From assembly GCF_013177635.1 (NCBI RefSeq), contig NZ_CP030944.1:1550001-1614000 (forward strand): 64,000 nt of DNA. Direction: 5' to 3'. Every line of letters starts with the position of its first letter. Within the stretch, counting starts at the first letter, position 1. Under the pieces are notes generated by a model. That model worked only from the letters and a program-made list of their open reading frames with translations. It searched no databases and had not been told where the DNA came from. Below are positions 40,016-49,428 of this stretch, piece by piece. Made by a program: the position numbers and the translations under genes. Origin of the DNA: Arcobacter aquimarinus (GTDB taxonomy: Bacteria > Campylobacterota > Campylobacteria > Campylobacterales > Arcobacteraceae).

Positions 40016-40825
40016 ATGGAAAAAGCTGTTCAATATTTTATAGTATTTGGCGGTTTAAATATAAAAATAGATACAAAAAAACCATTACTTGAACTAATAG
40101 AACAACATATTTTAAATAACTATTTACAATTAAGAAATGAAATTCATAGTTTAACGGGTGGTTATAAAGTTGACCATGCTGTGTTAACAGGAATTGCTCA
40201 AGGTGATAGAAGAACTAATTCATCTTTTAAAAGAGCCTTTGTAAGTTTTGAAGAGGGTTCAAAATGTGTTGAAAAATTAGTAGAAAGAGGAATAATTGAA
40301 GTTGAATCATCTCAACATCACTTAGCAAATAAAAGAGGTGATGATAAAGTTGCTAGAAAACTACTATTTACAACTCCATTTTTAAGATTTTGGTTTGCTT
40401 TTGTTTCTCCAATATATAAAGGTATAAAAGAGAAAAATTATGAAGAATTTTATACTCTTTTTGAAAATAAACAAGCTGAATTTGGAAACTTTGTATTTGA
40501 AGAATTATCAATGGAATTTATCAGAGATTTATTAAGTGAAGACCCAATAAAACAGTTTGGAAAATATTGGGATGAAAAAAGAGAAATAGATTTAGTTGCA
40601 AAAACAACAAGCGGAAAAATCATCGCAGGAAATTGCAAATATATAAACTCTAAAATCAAAAAAAATGAATTAAACAGACTAATGGATGATTGTAAAGGTG
40701 CAGGTTTAAATGTAGATATCTTTGTAATCTTTAGTAAAAATGGATTTTCAAATGAGTTAAAATCACTTAAAAGTGATTCTTTAAGACTATTTACTCCGAA
40801 GAGCTTTAAGCTATTATTAGCTTAA
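40016..40825 (+). CDS. DUF234-type protein without ATPase domain
   Basis: This 269-residue protein (from ATG 40016) has a winged-helix-like middle (GVEHAV-type LTGIAQGDRRTNSSFKRAF) and LLFTTPFLRFWFAFVSPIY, typical of DUF234. A nuclease-like core follows with REIDLVAKTTSGKIIAGNCKY. DUF234 is normally the C-terminus of archaeal-type AAA ATPases; here no ATPase part is present. The usual Glu of the (D/E)xK motif reads Asn (GNCK). Coding character extends 23 codons upstream to an ATA at 39947 with AAGGA before it, so the true start may be there. The 3' end overlaps the convergent ABC-F gene by 4 bases. Confidence 0.7.
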   Translation: MEKAVQYFIVFGGLNIKIDTKKPLLELIEQHILNNYLQLRNEIHSLTGGYKVDHAVLTGIAQGDRRTNSSFKRAFVSFEEGSKCVEKLVERGIIEVESSQHHLANKRGDDKVARKLLFTTPFLRFWFAFVSPIYKGIKEKNYEEFYTLFENKQAEFGNFVFEELSMEFIRDLLSEDPIKQFGKYWDEKREIDLVAKTTSGKIIAGNCKYINSKIKKNELNRLMDDCKGAGLNVDIFVIFSKNGFSNELKSLKSDSLRLFTPKSFKLLLA

Positions 40826-42609: not shown

Positions 42610-42741
42610 GATTCTTCTTTTGTATGTTTTTCTATTTTTTAAGGTTAGGATTATATGATAATGTGGGTTATATGTTGATTAGAGTAAATTTTTATTTCGA
42701 AGGTTTATTTCTTCTTACTAACTATACATTTTCTTTTAAAT
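42610..42741. other. Spacer upstream of ABC-F gene
   Basis: This is a short AT-rich non-coding stretch between the ABC-F start and the stop of the frameshifted gene. It should hold the ABC-F promoter on the minus strand. I see no clear repeat. Confidence 0.4.
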
Positions 42742-43165
42742 TTATTCTTCAAGATACTGATAATAAACTTTTATATCACTCCAAATTTTTCCTATTTTTA
42801 ATATATCCTCAAATTCTAAATTATTATGGTCATATAAACAATGAAACCACCAACAATGATATTCATTTTTCATAAAATGGTCTGTTCTACCAAAAAATTC
42901 ATTATGATTTTCACTCCATCTCCAAATATGTTGGTCTTTATTTAGAGATATGTTTTTTTAAATGTTCTTCAATACTTGAAAAAACATTTTCCTCATCTTC
43001 TTTAAGATAAAATGAAATAGTAAGTTCAATTTCATAATCAAATAAAAAATCATTTTTATTTGATACTCTTTTTAAAAGTTCTTTATCAAGTTTAATTGCT
43101 TCACTTAAAAGTTTATCTTGTAATTTTTTAAGTCTATTATTTACTATTTGAAGTTCATTCAACAT
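42742..43165 (-). pseudogene. Unknown protein, reading frame broken at an A7 tract
   Basis: The first part (42938-43165, 75 residues, MLNELQIVNNRLKKLQDKLL onward) ends early at HLKKHISK. A second open stretch in another frame (42742-42951) reads NKDQHIWRWSENHNEFFG, NEYHCWWFHCLYDHNN and ends YYQYLEE, with strong coding character but no normal start. Removing one A from the seven-A run (42953-42959 on the plus strand as T7) joins them into one protein of about 140 residues. It may be a pseudogene, a phase-variable gene, or a sequencing error. The N-terminal half is coiled coil. The family is unknown. It is last in the WYL/nuclease cluster. Confidence 0.65.
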
Positions 43166-43172
43166 TTTAAAA

Positions 43173-43565
43173 TTAATTCTTTTGATAAACTAGGTTAAAA
43201 AATATTTTATCTATATCTTTGATAATAATATTGGCTAAATGTATATTGGATTCTTTATTAAATTTATTCAAATCATCTAAAAAACCATTAGCATAAAAAT
43301 CAATTAATTCTTCTTCACTACTTGAAATACAATTTAACAACAAAGTTTTTACATTTTGGAACTCTTCAAAATTTATCTCTTCTATTATTTGTTCAAAAAT
43401 TTCACCCTCTTCTTTAAAATATGAAAAAAAACTTTCTTTTGAACACATCTCTTGATTTTCCATAATTTTATATATTAAACTATTTTCTAAATAACTATTT
43501 CTATCTTTATATGAAACTACATTTTCTAATAGATTTTTAATACAACTATCAAGTTTATTTTCCAT
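43173..43565 (-). CDS. Hypothetical protein in the WYL/nuclease cluster
   Basis: This 130-residue acidic, helix-rich protein has no recognised domain. It is rich in Glu, Asn and Ile and contains two Cys (CSKESFFSYF, LLLNCISSSEEEL). There is no signal peptide or membrane segment. It follows the PD-(D/E)XK gene by 12 bases and precedes the frameshifted gene by 7 bases, so all three are probably co-transcribed. A partner or immunity-like role to the nuclease is only a positional idea. Confidence 0.6.
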   Translation of the reverse strand: MENKLDSCIKNLLENVVSYKDRNSYLENSLIYKIMENQEMCSKESFFSYFKEEGEIFEQIIEEINFEEFQNVKTLLLNCISSSEEELIDFYANGFLDDLNKFNKESNIHLANIIIKDIDKIFFNLVYQKN

Positions 43566-43577
43566 TTTGTTTTACCT

Positions 43578-44795
43578 TTAGTTTAATTCTTTAACAATAA
43601 TATCCATATAGCTTTTTATTTCATTAAAAATATTTTCAACAATTTCATCTAATTTCTTATCATCAAAAATATCATAAGTTGGTTCTTCTTTATAATCTTT
43701 AGAAAAATTTAATTTTATATTTGAATCTTTATATCTTAATTTCCCTTCTCTATATTTAAAATTTATTTTATTAGAAATTAGAGATATATCTTTTGAATTA
43801 TCAAAAAAAATTTGATATCTAAAATTACAACTAGAATAAGAATATATTTTAAAATAAAAATCATCTTTTATTAAATCAAAAGATATACAATCTGATGATT
43901 TATTTCTAATATTTATTATTTTATTGATTACATCCTCTTGAGATTCATTGTAATTTTCATCATATTCATTGAAAAAAACATCTGATATCTCAAATTTCCA
44001 ATCTTTATTTTCAATATATGTAAATACTTTTTCTTCCAATTTTTTCCAAAATAAAAACTCTCTTTCTGCCCAAGCATAAGCTAGATTTTTTGACATAATT
44101 GTCGCTGATTTTGCCATTTCTGGAGTATTTATGAATTTTATGCTTTCCATTTGTAATTCCTCTGTTGTTTGATTTGTAATTTTTAGTATCAAATTTTTAT
44201 ATTGAATTAGACTTTCCCTTATTATTGGTAAATTAGCACTTTTTTCAATAGATTTTTCTATAAAATTCAATATATCCAATTGAAAAGAGATTTTTTCATA
44301 TTTTTTAAAACTATTTTCTGTCGAATCTCTACCATCTAAAGTTAAATAGTAAACCTTTGAAAATTCTTTATTTTGTTTTATACTATATTTATAATAATCA
44401 CTTAATTGATTTTCTTGATCTGTTGCATCTATTTTCATTTCAATTGCAATATAGTAATCTTTGTTTTCTATTGTAAAATCTATTCTTCTTGAAGTATCCG
44501 TTAATGTTTCTCTACCAACTTTTATATTATTAAAATCAAAATCTTTAATATTTAAAACTTCCTCAATAAATATCTCCAAATATTTATTGCCTTGAAAATG
44601 TGTTCCATTCGGATTTATAAGTTCATATATAAAAGCTGAATGGGTATCAACTTCTAATCTTTCCATTTTTAAAATAGAAAAGATATTAAACTTATCTCCT
44701 CTATGTTTTTGAAGCTCTTCAATAATTTCAATTTTTCCATATAACTTTATTAAAGCATTTTCTAGTTCTCTAAAATCTATATTTTTATCACTCAT
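43578..44795 (-). CDS. PD-(D/E)XK nuclease superfamily protein
   Basis: This 405-residue protein matches the PDDEXK_4-type pattern. Near the N-terminus it has IFSILKMERLEVDTHSAFIYELINP. The nuclease core is RRIDFTI then YYIAIEMKIDATDQENQLSDYY, giving the D...ExK motif plus the downstream Gln typical of the fold. The C-terminal half (about 220-405) has no recognised domain. Such proteins are common in defence islands. It lies 57 bases after a WYL regulator gene and starts a three-gene run. Confidence 0.8.
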   Translation of the reverse strand: MSDKNIDFRELENALIKLYGKIEIIEELQKHRGDKFNIFSILKMERLEVDTHSAFIYELINPNGTHFQGNKYLEIFIEEVLNIKDFDFNNIKVGRETLTDTSRRIDFTIENKDYYIAIEMKIDATDQENQLSDYYKYSIKQNKEFSKVYYLTLDGRDSTENSFKKYEKISFQLDILNFIEKSIEKSANLPIIRESLIQYKNLILKITNQTTEELQMESIKFINTPEMAKSATIMSKNLAYAWAEREFLFWKKLEEKVFTYIENKDWKFEISDVFFNEYDENYNESQEDVINKIINIRNKSSDCISFDLIKDDFYFKIYSYSSCNFRYQIFFDNSKDISLISNKINFKYREGKLRYKDSNIKLNFSKDYKEEPTYDIFDDKKLDEIVENIFNEIKSYMDIIVKELN

Positions 44796-44852
44796 TTCAA
44801 CAATTCCTTTTTAATTTACAAAATCTTACCATCACTAAATCCCCAAACTCCA

Positions 44853-45779
44853 TCACTCAAACCTTTTCAAATACAAATCAATATTACTTTTAACTTTCAT
44901 TTTCAACTCATCAGGTTCAATCACACCAATAAAAGGAATATATCTTTGAATAGTTGGAATTATTTCCATATAGTCTGTAATAGTTAGTTCTAAATCAACT
45001 GATTCATCATCATAGGTTTTCAGTATTCTTTGGGTTTTATTTAGTGGTTTTCTTAAAAAATATCTTGATACTTTTGAATCTATAAAAAGTTGAACTAAAA
45101 TAGATTCATTATTTGGTTTATAGTAAGCACTTATTGCATTATCAAAGGTTTTGATTTTTTCTTCATCGAATGAAAAGTGAGTATTTAGAACTTCTATATT
45201 TTTTATAGTATTTAGGTGGAAAGTTTTGATTTTATTATCATTTGGTTCATATATGATTAGATACCAAAATCCTTCAAGATTAAGAATCTTTAGAGGATAT
45301 ATTTCTCTATTTTTACCATTATAAAAGCATTTGATAATAGATTTTGATTCAACTGCATTTTTAATCTGAATTATTTCATTTTTAAAGTTATCTATTTTTT
45401 CAATTGAGCTTGTTTGATATAGTTTATTAGTTAATTCATCTTCAAATTTTAAAAATAAACTATCAACTTTTGGGGATAAATCAACATCGCTATATTTATC
45501 TTTTGATTTGTTTTTTAATATAGCAATAATTGATAATTCATCTGCACTAAACAAAGTTTTTGTTAGAAAGTTATTTTTTGCTTTATAAGTTTTTGAAGAG
45601 TAATCATAATAGATTTTATCATCTACAAATAAAGGTAAAATATACTCTTTAAAATCAGTTTGAATAATTTTTTTAGAAACACCAAATCTTTCTACAAGAC
45701 TAGGAGTTGATAACTCATAGCCTTTACTTAATAGTTCTAGTATTAGTGATAATCTATTTATTTTATTTTGAAAATTCAT
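44853..45779 (-). CDS. WYL-domain transcriptional regulator
   Basis: This protein of about 308 residues has an N-terminal winged HTH (INRLSLILELLSKGYELSTP, then SLVERFGVSKKIIQTDFKEY). A WYL domain follows, with SIIKCFYNGKNREIYPLKIL and EGFWYLIIYEPND, and the C-terminal WCX extension ends it. I choose ATG 45779; a GTG at 45830 would run through the tandem repeats that look like its operator. WYL proteins such as BrxR and CapW repress phage-defence operons. Here it precedes a nuclease gene on the same strand. Confidence 0.87.
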   Translation of the reverse strand: MNFQNKINRLSLILELLSKGYELSTPSLVERFGVSKKIIQTDFKEYILPLFVDDKIYYDYSSKTYKAKNNFLTKTLFSADELSIIAILKNKSKDKYSDVDLSPKVDSLFLKFEDELTNKLYQTSSIEKIDNFKNEIIQIKNAVESKSIIKCFYNGKNREIYPLKILNLEGFWYLIIYEPNDNKIKTFHLNTIKNIEVLNTHFSFDEEKIKTFDNAISAYYKPNNESILVQLFIDSKVSRYFLRKPLNKTQRILKTYDDESVDLELTITDYMEIIPTIQRYIPFIGVIEPDELKMKVKSNIDLYLKRFE

Positions 45780-45818
45780 TTTATTCTTTAATAATAATTT
45801 AGCAATTATTATATCAAT

Positions 45819-45839
45819 CAAATGACTCACAAATGACTC
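45819..45839. repeat. Tandem CAAATGACTC repeats upstream of the WYL gene
   Basis: CAAATGACTC occurs at 45819-45828 and again at 45830-45839, an 11-base period equal to one DNA turn. It lies 40-60 bases before the preferred WYL start, where a promoter -35 is expected. It is a good candidate operator. Confidence 0.6.
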
Positions 45840-45869
45840 TTTTTATAAAATATAAAAAAATTTATAATT

Positions 45870-46205
45870 TTAGACTAATCCAGTAAAAAGTATTTTACAT
45901 TTAACCTTATTTTCTGGCATATTTTCATTGATTGTAGTTTTAAAGATTATTTCACAATCTTCATCTATTTTTTCATTGAAAAAACTCATAATATCATTTA
46001 TTGTAAAGATTGAAACAGTAGGTAAGATTTCAAACTCTATCCAAACACCTTTAGCACTTTTTAATTCATTAGAAAATTCATTTTGAACATCTAAAGCAAT
46101 ATTATCATCAAGACTAAAAACTTTAACATAACCAGCAACTTTTCCAATTTTTGACAAGATTGTTTGTAAATCAAATAAATCATCTTTTTTTGTATCTAAA
46201 CTCAT
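45870..46205 (-). CDS. Small protein resembling a stand-alone FtsZ C-terminal domain
   Basis: This 111-residue protein has no GTPase domain. Residues about 50-110 follow the FtsZ_C (tubulin C-terminal-like) pattern: SAKGVWIEFEI, then FTINDIMSFFNEKIDEDCEI and IIFKTTINENMPENKVKCKI ending FTGL. This compares with FtsZ's AKGVLxNI, VNEAAxxI, NIIFGxxIDExL and VTVIATG. The N-terminal 40 residues carry VAGYVKVFSLDD. It might modulate FtsZ or another tubulin-like partner, or be an unrelated protein of the same fold. It lies between the WYL gene and dapD, and its upstream region holds the dapD terminator. Confidence 0.55.
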   Translation of the reverse strand: MSLDTKKDDLFDLQTILSKIGKVAGYVKVFSLDDNIALDVQNEFSNELKSAKGVWIEFEILPTVSIFTINDIMSFFNEKIDEDCEIIFKTTINENMPENKVKCKILFTGLV

Positions 46206-46281
46206 TTCATTCTCCTATTGTTTATATATTGAAATTATAAACTAGGTGAATTACTTAGGTTGGGAATTTAATAGTAGAAAT

Positions 46282-46315
46282 AAAAAAAGGTAAGAGAAAA
46301 AACTCTTACCTTTTG
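46282..46315 (-). terminator. dapD terminator
   Basis: On the minus strand GGTAAGAG / CTCTTACC with a T6 loop is followed by T7. It is about 20 bases past the dapD stop and separates dapD from the small FtsZ_C-like gene. Confidence 0.85.
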
Positions 46316-46334
46316 ATAGTAAAATAAAAGAAGA

Positions 46335-47522
46335 TTAGTGTAAATCAGCGTTTAATTTAACTTCTCTTGTACTTCTCATAGCGATAGTTTGACCTGTACT
46401 TGAATTTACTCTAAAGTGAACTCCATTTACTCCTTGGAAGTCACTTCCTTTCATAACATTTGAAATCTCTTTTCCTGGATTTATTGCTTTTAATTGCTCA
46501 ACAGCTTTATCAGAAAGAGTGATTTTAGTTCCTGGTAAAATTGTAACACCTGCATCTAAAATACAACCATCACCAATTGCTGTTCCTGTACAAGAGTTAG
46601 CACCTAAAAGTGTATTTTCTCCAATAGTTACAGGCACACCATCAGTTCCTGATAGAACTCCTAGAATTGAAGCTCCTCCACCAACATCTGAACCAGCTCC
46701 AACAACAGCACTTGAAGAGATTCTTCCTTCAACCATAACAGCACCTAAAGTTCCAGCGTTGAAGTTGATATAAGCAGCACCTGGCATAACAGTTGTTCCA
46801 GCTGCTAATTGAGCTCCCATTCTAACTTTTGAAGTTTCTAATATTCTTGTATTATCAGCTAAAATTACATGTTGTAATAATCTTGGGAATTTATCAACGA
46901 AATCAATATTTGGATATTTTCCAGAAAGTTTTAATACGATTTCATTTGCTCTTAACCAGTCAAGCTCGATTGGTTGATTTCCAACCCATGCGCAATTATG
47001 TAGTTTTCCAAATGCACCATTTAAGTTTAAGCTTCTTAAAGCTGCTTTTCCAGTTGAAAGGGCATAAAGCTTTAAATATACAGCTTCTGTACTTTCAGGT
47101 GCTGCGTCTTCAAAAATAAATACAACTCTATAATCATCAGCACTTAATCCTGAATCAATTGGTAAAGATGCAAGTGTTGATATAACTTGAACATTTTTAT
47201 GTGCTTCACCTTTAGCTTCAGGAATAAATGGTCTAAAAGCTTCAATACAAGAAGTTAAAAACTCATCACTTATTTTGCATACTAATTCTGATTTTGAAGT
47301 ATCTACGTTTTCACCAGCTACTTTTAAAGCGTTTAATAATACTGCTGCACTTCCAAAATTTTCATTCCAATTTATCAAAGGGAAAGTTGCTTGAAGTATT
47401 TTATCTTTGTTTAATTGTCCTCTATCAACTCTTGCAATACCAAATCCGATTGGATTTTTGTACCAAGATTGTGATTGAATATCATCTACTAATTGTTTAA
47501 ATTCATCTTTTGTATAAGCCAT
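46335..47522 (-). CDS. dapD: 2,3,4,5-tetrahydropyridine-2,6-dicarboxylate N-succinyltransferase
   Basis: This 395-residue enzyme has a long N-terminal domain and a left-handed beta-helix of hexapeptide repeats at about 230-345 (TTVMPGAAYINFNAGTLGAV, SSAVVGAGSDVGGGASILG, GENTLLGANSCTGTAIGDGC). It adds succinyl from succinyl-CoA in lysine and diaminopimelate synthesis. The length matches the long Campylobacterota/Actinobacteria DapD form rather than the 274-residue E. coli form. It has its own strong terminator. Confidence 0.95.
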   Translation of the reverse strand: MAYTKDEFKQLVDDIQSQSWYKNPIGFGIARVDRGQLNKDKILQATFPLINWNENFGSAAVLLNALKVAGENVDTSKSELVCKISDEFLTSCIEAFRPFIPEAKGEAHKNVQVISTLASLPIDSGLSADDYRVVFIFEDAAPESTEAVYLKLYALSTGKAALRSLNLNGAFGKLHNCAWVGNQPIELDWLRANEIVLKLSGKYPNIDFVDKFPRLLQHVILADNTRILETSKVRMGAQLAAGTTVMPGAAYINFNAGTLGAVMVEGRISSSAVVGAGSDVGGGASILGVLSGTDGVPVTIGENTLLGANSCTGTAIGDGCILDAGVTILPGTKITLSDKAVEQLKAINPGKEISNVMKGSDFQGVNGVHFRVNSSTGQTIAMRSTREVKLNADLH

Positions 47523-47580
47523 TAGTTCTCCTATTAAATTTTTGCGTATTTTACAATAAACTTGACTAATATAAGGTTAA

Positions 47581-49428
47581 TTAATAAATCGTATCCATAT
47601 CTATTGTAGCATTTGGTGAATTTATGGAGTGTAAAGCATTTAAAAGTGCTTTTATATTATTTGAACGAAGAAGAATTTCATACCTATATTTATTTGCCAT
47701 TTTAAAAATAGGACTTTGTCCAAAACCAACAACTTCTATTTGTTTATTATCTTTAAAAATCTTTGCATAATCTTCCATTTCATCTTTTACTTTTAAGCCA
47801 TTTGAACTTGAAAAAATCACTTTTGCCATTTTTAAAAATGGTGGATAAAAATCTTGACGAAACTCTAATTCACTTTTTAAAAACTCTTCATAATTTGATT
47901 CATTTAAGTAATGACTAAAAAACTCTTGATTTTTTGTTTGAATTATTACTTCACCCTCACCACTTCTTCCACTTCTTCCTGATATTTGAATCAATAAAGA
48001 CAAAGCTTTTTCCCTAGATTTATAAGAGTTCATATTTAAAACTGAATCAATTCCAAGAACAACTGCTAGTTTTACATTATGATAATCATGCCCTTTTGAA
48101 AGCATTTGAGTTCCCACTAAAATATCAATTTTTCCATCATTAAACTCGTTTAAAACTGTTTTTAATTGATTATCTGTTTTGATTTCATCCCTATCAAATC
48201 TTTTTATTTTGATATTTGGAAAATGAAATTTCAACTCCTCCTCAATTTGTGCCGTTCCAACTCGTAAATTATGAATAATTCCACTATTACAAGAAGGACA
48301 AGAATCAGGTATTTTTTGAGTATATCCACAATAATGGCACTTTAATGCCAAATCATTTTTATGTAAACTCATAGAAACCGAACAAAAAGGACACTCAACA
48401 GATTTTCCACAAGTTGTACAAATCTGATATTTAAAATTTGCACGTGTAGGTAAAAATACAATTACTTGATTTTTATCTTTTATAGTTTTTTCTATTTTTT
48501 CTATAATTTTAGAAGATAAATTTGATTGACTATCATCAAAACTATAAACTTTCTTTGTTTTATGAAAAGTCTCATTTAGTCTAAAAAATGGTATTTTATG
48601 AAAAGAACTACTACTTACAGTTGCACTTCCTAAAACTAGTTGTAAGTTATATTTTTTAGCTATATAAATTGCTAAATCTTTAGTATTTAATCTTGGTTTT
48701 GAATCACTTTTATATGAATCATCATGCTCTTCATCTACAACAATAACTCCAAGATTAAAATAAGGTAAAAACAGAGCTGATCTTGCACCTGCGATTAATC
48801 TTATAGTTCCTTCTTGTAAACCTTTTAAAATCTCAATTTTTTTCTTTTTTGTGATTTTTGAGTGCCAAATAGCAACACTTTTACCAAAAACTTTTTCCAA
48901 TCTCTTTTGCATTTGAGGAGTTAAAGATATTTCAGGCATAAGTAAAACTGCTTGTCTATTTTGATTTAGATGTTCTTCTATAATTTTTATGTAAATTTCA
49001 GTTTTGCCAGCTCCTGTATTTGCAAAAAGTAGAGCCTGTTTTTTTTCATCTAAAAACTCTTTAGCTTTTTGTTGTAAAGAAGATAAAACAATTTTACTAT
49101 CAAATTTCTCTTCGTTTGAAATTTTTTCTATATTTTTATCAAAAGGATTATAAACACTTAAAGCTTCACCAATTGAACAAACATAATAAGTAGAAATAAA
49201 ACTTGCTATTTGAAGCATTTTTTCATCATAAAATTGATTTGTAATTTCACTTATATTTGTACAATCAAAAGTTGGTTTTTCAACCTCTTTTATAATAACA
49301 GCTTCATCTAAGACTTTTCTATTTCTTAATTTTATAAAAACTTTTGAACCAATATCTATTTTCTCTTCATTTTGAAAAGTAAGATTATTTAAAGGGGATT
49401 TTAATAAAGCAACTTCATAATAAAACAC
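47581..49428 (-). CDS. priA: Primosomal helicase PriA
   Basis: This 615-residue replication-restart helicase has Walker A ANTGAGKTEIY (about 135), a DEEH-type box VVVDEEHDDSYK (about 230) and zinc-binding Cys pairs at about 336-385 (CTTCGKSVECPFC, CHYCGYTQ, CPSC). Helicase motifs VGTQMLSKGHDYH and QISGRSGRSGEG follow. It starts at GTG 49428, overlapping the stop of the pseudopilin gene by one base. The N-terminal 3'-DNA-binding domain is shorter than in E. coli. Confidence 0.95.
   Translation of the reverse strand: MFYYEVALLKSPLNNLTFQNEEKIDIGSKVFIKLRNRKVLDEAVIIKEVEKPTFDCTNISEITNQFYDEKMLQIASFISTYYVCSIGEALSVYNPFDKNIEKISNEEKFDSKIVLSSLQQKAKEFLDEKKQALLFANTGAGKTEIYIKIIEEHLNQNRQAVLLMPEISLTPQMQKRLEKVFGKSVAIWHSKITKKKKIEILKGLQEGTIRLIAGARSALFLPYFNLGVIVVDEEHDDSYKSDSKPRLNTKDLAIYIAKKYNLQLVLGSATVSSSSFHKIPFFRLNETFHKTKKVYSFDDSQSNLSSKIIEKIEKTIKDKNQVIVFLPTRANFKYQICTTCGKSVECPFCSVSMSLHKNDLALKCHYCGYTQKIPDSCPSCNSGIIHNLRVGTAQIEEELKFHFPNIKIKRFDRDEIKTDNQLKTVLNEFNDGKIDILVGTQMLSKGHDYHNVKLAVVLGIDSVLNMNSYKSREKALSLLIQISGRSGRSGEGEVIIQTKNQEFFSHYLNESNYEEFLKSELEFRQDFYPPFLKMAKVIFSSSNGLKVKDEMEDYAKIFKDNKQIEVVGFGQSPIFKMANKYRYEILLRSNNIKALLNALHSINSPNATIDMDTIY

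Follow-up and report, generated by a model that had tools for sequence, protein, structure and literature searches.

The locus lies in a 2.52-Mb chromosome, within the window, that is, the whole stretch of 64,000 nucleotides that was analysed, to which all coordinates refer. In the order of transcription, it holds the gene of a 111-aa protein with an FtsZ C-terminal domain (FtsZ_C; 46205-45870), a WYL-type regulator gene (45779-44853), a nuclease gene (44795-43578), the gene of a 130-aa protein, P130 (43565-43173), and the frameshifted gene 3 (43165-42742), all on the minus strand. The features of the locus are listed below.

42689-46277, no strand: inserted cassette at the junction of the ABC-F gene and dapD, delimited by homology breaks against empty sites.
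46247-46270, -10 box TATAAT at 46234-46239 on the minus strand: R-box1, an operator-like imperfect palindrome upstream of the FtsZ_C gene, recognised by motif rank, dyad and fixed spacing.
45870-46205, minus strand: stand-alone FtsZ C-terminal-domain protein of 111 aa that travels with WYL (Pfam FtsZ_C).
45808-45839, minus strand: WYL promoter with tandem GAGTCATTTG repeats (45830-45839 and 45819-45828) and the -10 box TATAAT (45808-45813).
44853-45779, minus strand: WYL-domain transcriptional regulator of 308 aa, HTH-WYL-WCX, assigned by Pfam domains and by profile matches to the structures of PafBC, CapW and BrxR.
44823-44849, minus strand: cargo promoter with the operator-like half-site AGTTTGGGGATTTA (R-box2, 44836-44849), a 7-nt gap and the -10 box TAAGAT (44823-44828).
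43578-44795, minus strand: PD-(D/E)XK nuclease of 405 aa (PDDEXK_4, PADLOC candidate PDC-S26), assigned by profiles and catalytic residues.
43173-43565, minus strand: P130, an undescribed acidic protein of 130 aa, found solely beside this nuclease.
42742-43165, minus strand: gene 3, about 141 codons, split by a frameshift into an N part (42938-43165) and a C part (42742-42957), with an intact copy at L082:8904-9326.

The first-pass annotation had proposed, on one strand, a WYL regulator, a PD-(D/E)XK nuclease of 405 aa, an unknown protein of 130 aa and a gene of about 140 codons with a frameshift, and each of these was confirmed in its place. However, the locus had been drawn too short, as the upstream FtsZ_C gene (45870-46205) and its operator, both of which travel together with the WYL gene, had been missed.

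The gap between dapD and the ABC-F gene measures approximately 140 bp in ten congeners, which represent empty sites. Homology of the window to these sites ends at 42683-42691 and restarts at 46264-46282, and as it breaks at both ends, the cassette in its entirety represents an insertion of approximately 3.6 kb. At the insertion ends, direct repeats of at least 8 bp were not found. Two mutually inverted 14-bp elements at the module ends were considered as terminal inverted repeats of a transposon, but they fit better as operators, since each of them sits in a promoter at a fixed distance from the -10 box. The junction is a recurrent insertion spot, with unrelated genes in different congeners (L141, L142, L143, L144, L147): a 533-aa gene, a DNA-methyltransferase-like gene, which we take to be such from reading its sequence, or small genes. 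Adjoining the ABC-F gene lies a DUF234-type protein (40016-40825), for which Pfam gave no nucleotide-binding domain match.

The regulator matched Pfam WYL (2.4e-8) and WCX (2.2e-5), both over the cutoff, and residues 9-44 matched HTH_11 under the cutoff (0.0044). The GTG start that would give a protein of 325 aa is probably too early, the conserved start being the ATG of the 308-aa form. When solved structures were searched with the family profile (A6), CapW (1.4e-6) and BrxR (2.5e-4) were found, and the top PDB sequence was PafBC; the single WYL sequence as a query gave no match to solved CapW or BrxR. One WYL orthologue (L073 in genome G090) has no cargo behind it. Two contigs of genome G020 (L100 and L101) share the same 18-kb block including a WYL gene, which is either a true duplication or an assembly artefact.

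What follows the regulator differs between genomes. At the same dapD/ABC-F site, genome G005 carries an 8.2-kb insert that is 94% identical to the window from 44807 to 47600, comprising the FtsZ_C gene, the WYL gene and the flank. The homology stops at 44807, within the spacer between WYL gene and cargo and 12 bases before the nuclease start, and the cargo behind it, without homology to ours, is a DISARM-like helicase operon of a DrmD-like SNF2 helicase, a large AAA protein and a PDC-S31 protein. Genome G003 is 83% identical over 44808-46270, followed by a DrmD-like helicase and a type IIG restriction enzyme, and genome G001 has FtsZ_C, WYL, nuclease and P130 in common with the window. Genome G009 carries the three cargo genes together with the spacer (42730-44846, 85%), without the WYL gene and approximately 0.1 kb after a phage-integrase-like gene. 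Read from these alignments, the exchange point is the WYL-cargo spacer. Overall, WYL relatives at 68-90% identity have Druantia, type IIG, type I restriction or CBASS-effector genes behind them; those at 68-72% head Druantia DruE operons, a CBASS-effector-type patatin phospholipase, HsdM and a leucine-rich-repeat protein, and at 59% identity, a WYL gene heads a type I CRISPR operon (Cas6-Cas8b-Cas7-Cas3). Since one control gene is paired with unrelated defence cargo, the evidence is much stronger than guilt by neighbourhood.

The spacer 3' of the WYL stop showed a mean pairwise identity of 65% over 34 nt in ten cassettes with differing cargo (34% when shuffled), and the following 26 nt reached 39% (36% when shuffled). 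In the conserved part, AGTTTGGknATTTA is followed after 7 nt by a TAnnnT box, and this cargo element stands at a fixed distance from the WYL stop in the ten cassettes. The full half-site pattern AGTTTGGGGATTTA occurs without mismatch only once in the genome. A half-site of similar sequence, likewise spaced by 7 nt, was found upstream of the FtsZ_C gene in 6/6 cassettes checked and, with this spacing, also in the WYL-less cargo of G009, so that overall 17/17 half-sites lie 7 nt from a TAnnnT box. With a motif built from other species only, position 44836 ranked first and 46257 second among approximately 128,000 window positions. R-box1 (46247-46270) pairs at 7 of 12 dyad positions, and the 59% WYL homologue (L250) has a near-perfect palindrome of the half-site directly upstream of its WYL gene. 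The tandem operator-like repeats that the first-pass annotation had pointed out before the WYL gene also held up: there are two copies of GAGTCATTTG, 11 bp apart (45819-45839), with p ~0.02 against shuffles. They belong to the promoter of the WYL gene itself and are retained in four of its orthologues.

Taken as a whole, the locus is in our view probably a mobile, exchangeable anti-phage cassette, in which a BrxR/CapW-like WYL repressor and the co-travelling FtsZ_C gene are fixed and the effectors vary, here being the PDC-S26 nuclease, P130 and the broken gene 3. In the uninfected cell, a WYL dimer would sit on R-box1 (46247-46270), on the repeats of its own promoter and on R-box2 (44836-44849) and hold transcription down. 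A ligand made during infection, perhaps a nucleotide or a DNA-damage product, would be bound by the WYL domain and cause the release of the WYL protein. From the released promoter, the nuclease would then be made and degrade either the DNA of the phage or, in abortive infection, that of the cell itself. Protection against phages, as well as any roles of P130 and gene 3 in it, is what we infer from this arrangement. The layout of the putative operators in the window parallels that of BrxR, which works through R-BOX1 and R-BOX2, located at brxR and at the cargo promoter (PMC9122601).

The same cassette could also be run by an activator. A PafBC/DriD-like WYL protein would bind 5' of the -10 box and recruit RNA polymerase on a single-stranded DNA or nucleotide signal, and WYL proteins can indeed also activate, as PafBC and DriD do. 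Such a mode would suit the exact 7-nt distance between the end of the element and the -10 box, the best score of PafBC among PDB sequences and the cargo promoter, at which no -35 box was seen. However, the missing -35 box is weak evidence, because Campylobacterota sigma-70 promoters are generally without a conserved -35 box. With the defence-linked relatives CapW and BrxR both acting as repressors (PMC9122588, PMC9122601), we regard activation as unlikely and retain the repressor reading.

Within the cargo, the nuclease matched Pfam PDDEXK_4 (7.9e-30; 104.6 bits, cutoff 22.3) and, over its full length, PADLOC PDC-S26 (8.6e-73, residues 21-401). Residues D106, E119-x-K121 and Q130 do not vary among 17 diverse homologues from several phyla, and the catalytic D...ExK is intact. 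In the AlphaFold2 model (mean pLDDT 82.6), residues 37-190 aligned best with the PD-(D/E)XK enzymes BspD6I, McrC, EndoMS and Can2, at modest Z scores of 5-7.6 that lie under the firm threshold; Foldseek gave no match with E <0.001 for the model, and no identity was found for the C-terminal half (residues 238-405). A single-sequence search of the genome contigs returned zero nuclease relatives and an alignment-based search 412. The nuclease is patchily distributed (14/104 genomes), and no paper on PDC-S26 or PDDEXK_4 was found in the literature searched. The earlier statement that none of the downstream genes belongs to a recognised system does not wholly hold for the nuclease, which is already listed as the defence candidate PDC-S26.

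The nuclease and WYL genes are also linked elsewhere. A search for nuclease homologues near other WYL genes, as suggested earlier, found WYL within 10 kb of 8/18 nuclease genes in Arcobacteraceae, all on the same strand (expected 0.14), and within 8 kb in 24/80 nuclease loci from GTDB. The latter figure rests on strand and distance controls: the same-strand ratio is 24:1 (p 1.5e-6), and WYL genes are three times as dense within 4 kb as at 4-8 kb. This linkage recurs across phyla. Single nuclease genes without WYL, which had been named beforehand as evidence to the contrary, do occur in two Sulfurospirillum genomes (L153, L158), where the nuclease stands alone at one site without WYL, P130 and gene 3, flanked by genes that are presumably trpB-like and mqnE-like; these lone copies count in part against the proposal, and against a fixed system. 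The L158 copy is divided over two frames. The three cargo genes do not form an obligatory trio. A second recurrent cluster combines a PDDEXK_4 nuclease, a DUF2779-type gene and WYL (L087, L088, L099, L234, L235) and is found on Aliarcobacter plasmids as well; L235 has a shortened nuclease gene followed by a transposase gene. With regard to the proposal of an undescribed defence locus, the cargo exchange with recognised systems behind a near-identical WYL gene and the cross-phylum linkage support its defence type and a WYL regulator of the BrxR/CapW kind, but "undescribed" is only partly apt, given the match of the nuclease to PDC-S26.

P130 was found in three genomes only, each time directly downstream of this nuclease. 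It had no relative in plasmids or viral contigs and nothing above chance level in Pfam, NCBIfam, PADLOC and PHROGs, and a scan of the phylum gave one marginal 30-residue match only. Its exclusive place beside the nuclease, together with the occurrence of the nuclease family on plasmids too, would be consistent with a cargo that is not anti-phage, namely a selfish or anti-plasmid restriction-like element, or a nuclease toxin with P130 as its antidote that is kept by addiction. However, recognised defence systems take this position in other cassettes, nuclease homologues without P130 exist, and we consider a selfish or toxin-antidote cargo quite improbable beside the anti-phage cassette.

Between 42930 and 42960, gene 3 is broken within a run of seven A. 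The break is real relative to its relatives, as G009 holds a near-identical intact copy (140 aa, 95% identical), and since the frame after the break is shifted by -1 against the frame before it, a slip at the seven A could give some full-length product. No curated family model matched; a HCW..H.LY motif is conserved in the intact Arcobacteraceae members. Relatives are present in other Arcobacteraceae, in one viral contig, in Bacteroidota (L219, L227), where a PDDEXK_4 nuclease and also a WYL gene are their neighbours, and on an Aliarcobacter plasmid, where the relative lies immediately 5' of two regulator genes, one of them annotated as a WYL-domain protein. The AF2 model of the family, with the L227 homologue as lead, had a pLDDT of 60, too weak for a structure search. 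Absent from the G001 cassette and most nuclease loci, gene 3 is not needed everywhere, and a decayed remnant, dead here by the frameshift that the intact relative reveals, is very unlikely given this absence, the possible -1 slip and the intact nuclease, P130, WYL and operator elements.

The first gene of the cassette encodes a 111-aa protein that scored just above the cutoff for Pfam FtsZ_C (3.1e-6; 27.8 bits, cutoff 27), and an orthologue (L072) scored 19.4 bits only. Over residues 31-110, it is approximately 40% identical to the C-domain of the host FtsZ, with which it aligns from the T7 loop onward, and the acidic T7-loop region is kept. Against PDB sequences, phmmer returned chance-level matches only. 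Approximately 9/13 stand-alone FtsZ_C copies in the family have a WYL gene within about 2 kb, and others are near McrBC, GmrSD or UvrD-PDDEXK genes. The family recurs in defence neighbourhoods (45870-46205, L071, L072, L074, L075, L103, L252, L253, L254, L255, L257), and no description of it was found in the literature searched. In a related genome, a uracil-DNA-glycosylase domain follows a full FtsZ, with its GTPase and C-terminal domains, within one protein of 1462 aa (L258:4214-8602). A complex of FtsZ with the phage inhibitor Gp0.4 triggers the defence protein CapRel-Ebc (PMC13423816), and in view of this, a role as a decoy or in stopping division is conceivable. A further reading, to which we give little probability, is that stand-alone FtsZ_C and WYL might form a portable sensor-control module whose two outer promoters carry matched operators and which takes up defence systems unrelated to each other, the PDC-S26 nuclease and P130 being one cargo. 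The FtsZ fragment would be a decoy for phage FtsZ inhibitors or a division-stopping cap and so couple an attack on division to defence.

Among known systems, PDC-S26 is a single-gene phage defence candidate of PADLOC that resembles the locus in the full-length match of the nuclease; it is a candidate only, and WYL, P130 and gene 3 would, judging by its name, lie outside the single-gene entry. BrxR and CapW (PMC9122601, PMC9122589, PMC9122588) share the HTH-WYL-WCX architecture, the place at the head of diverse defence operons and operator-like sites at their own and the cargo promoters. However, the sequence similarity is distant only, an FtsZ_C gene precedes the regulator here, and the operator-like sites of the window are direct repeats, single half-sites and an imperfect dyad, in contrast to the clean inverted repeats of BrxR and CapW. 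In RptR restriction islands (PMC12255303), a repressor gene likewise heads a defence island and direct repeats lie in the promoter, but the minimal site TAGCTA and the 9-bp repeats, compared by description, are unlike the window elements. CapRel-Ebc (PMC13423816) illustrates that FtsZ can be a sensed host factor in phage defence; it differs in using the cell's own FtsZ, without a stand-alone FtsZ domain or a WYL regulator.

The cassette thus amounts to a natural experiment with one regulator unit, one site and differing defence cargo, in which the exchange point and the promoter element are visible to the base. The cargo exchange backs PDC-S26, so far a candidate only, as a real defence effector, and the predicted operator provides a means of finding new cargos. 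Stand-alone FtsZ domains, finally, emerge as a recurrent and apparently undescribed component of defence loci.
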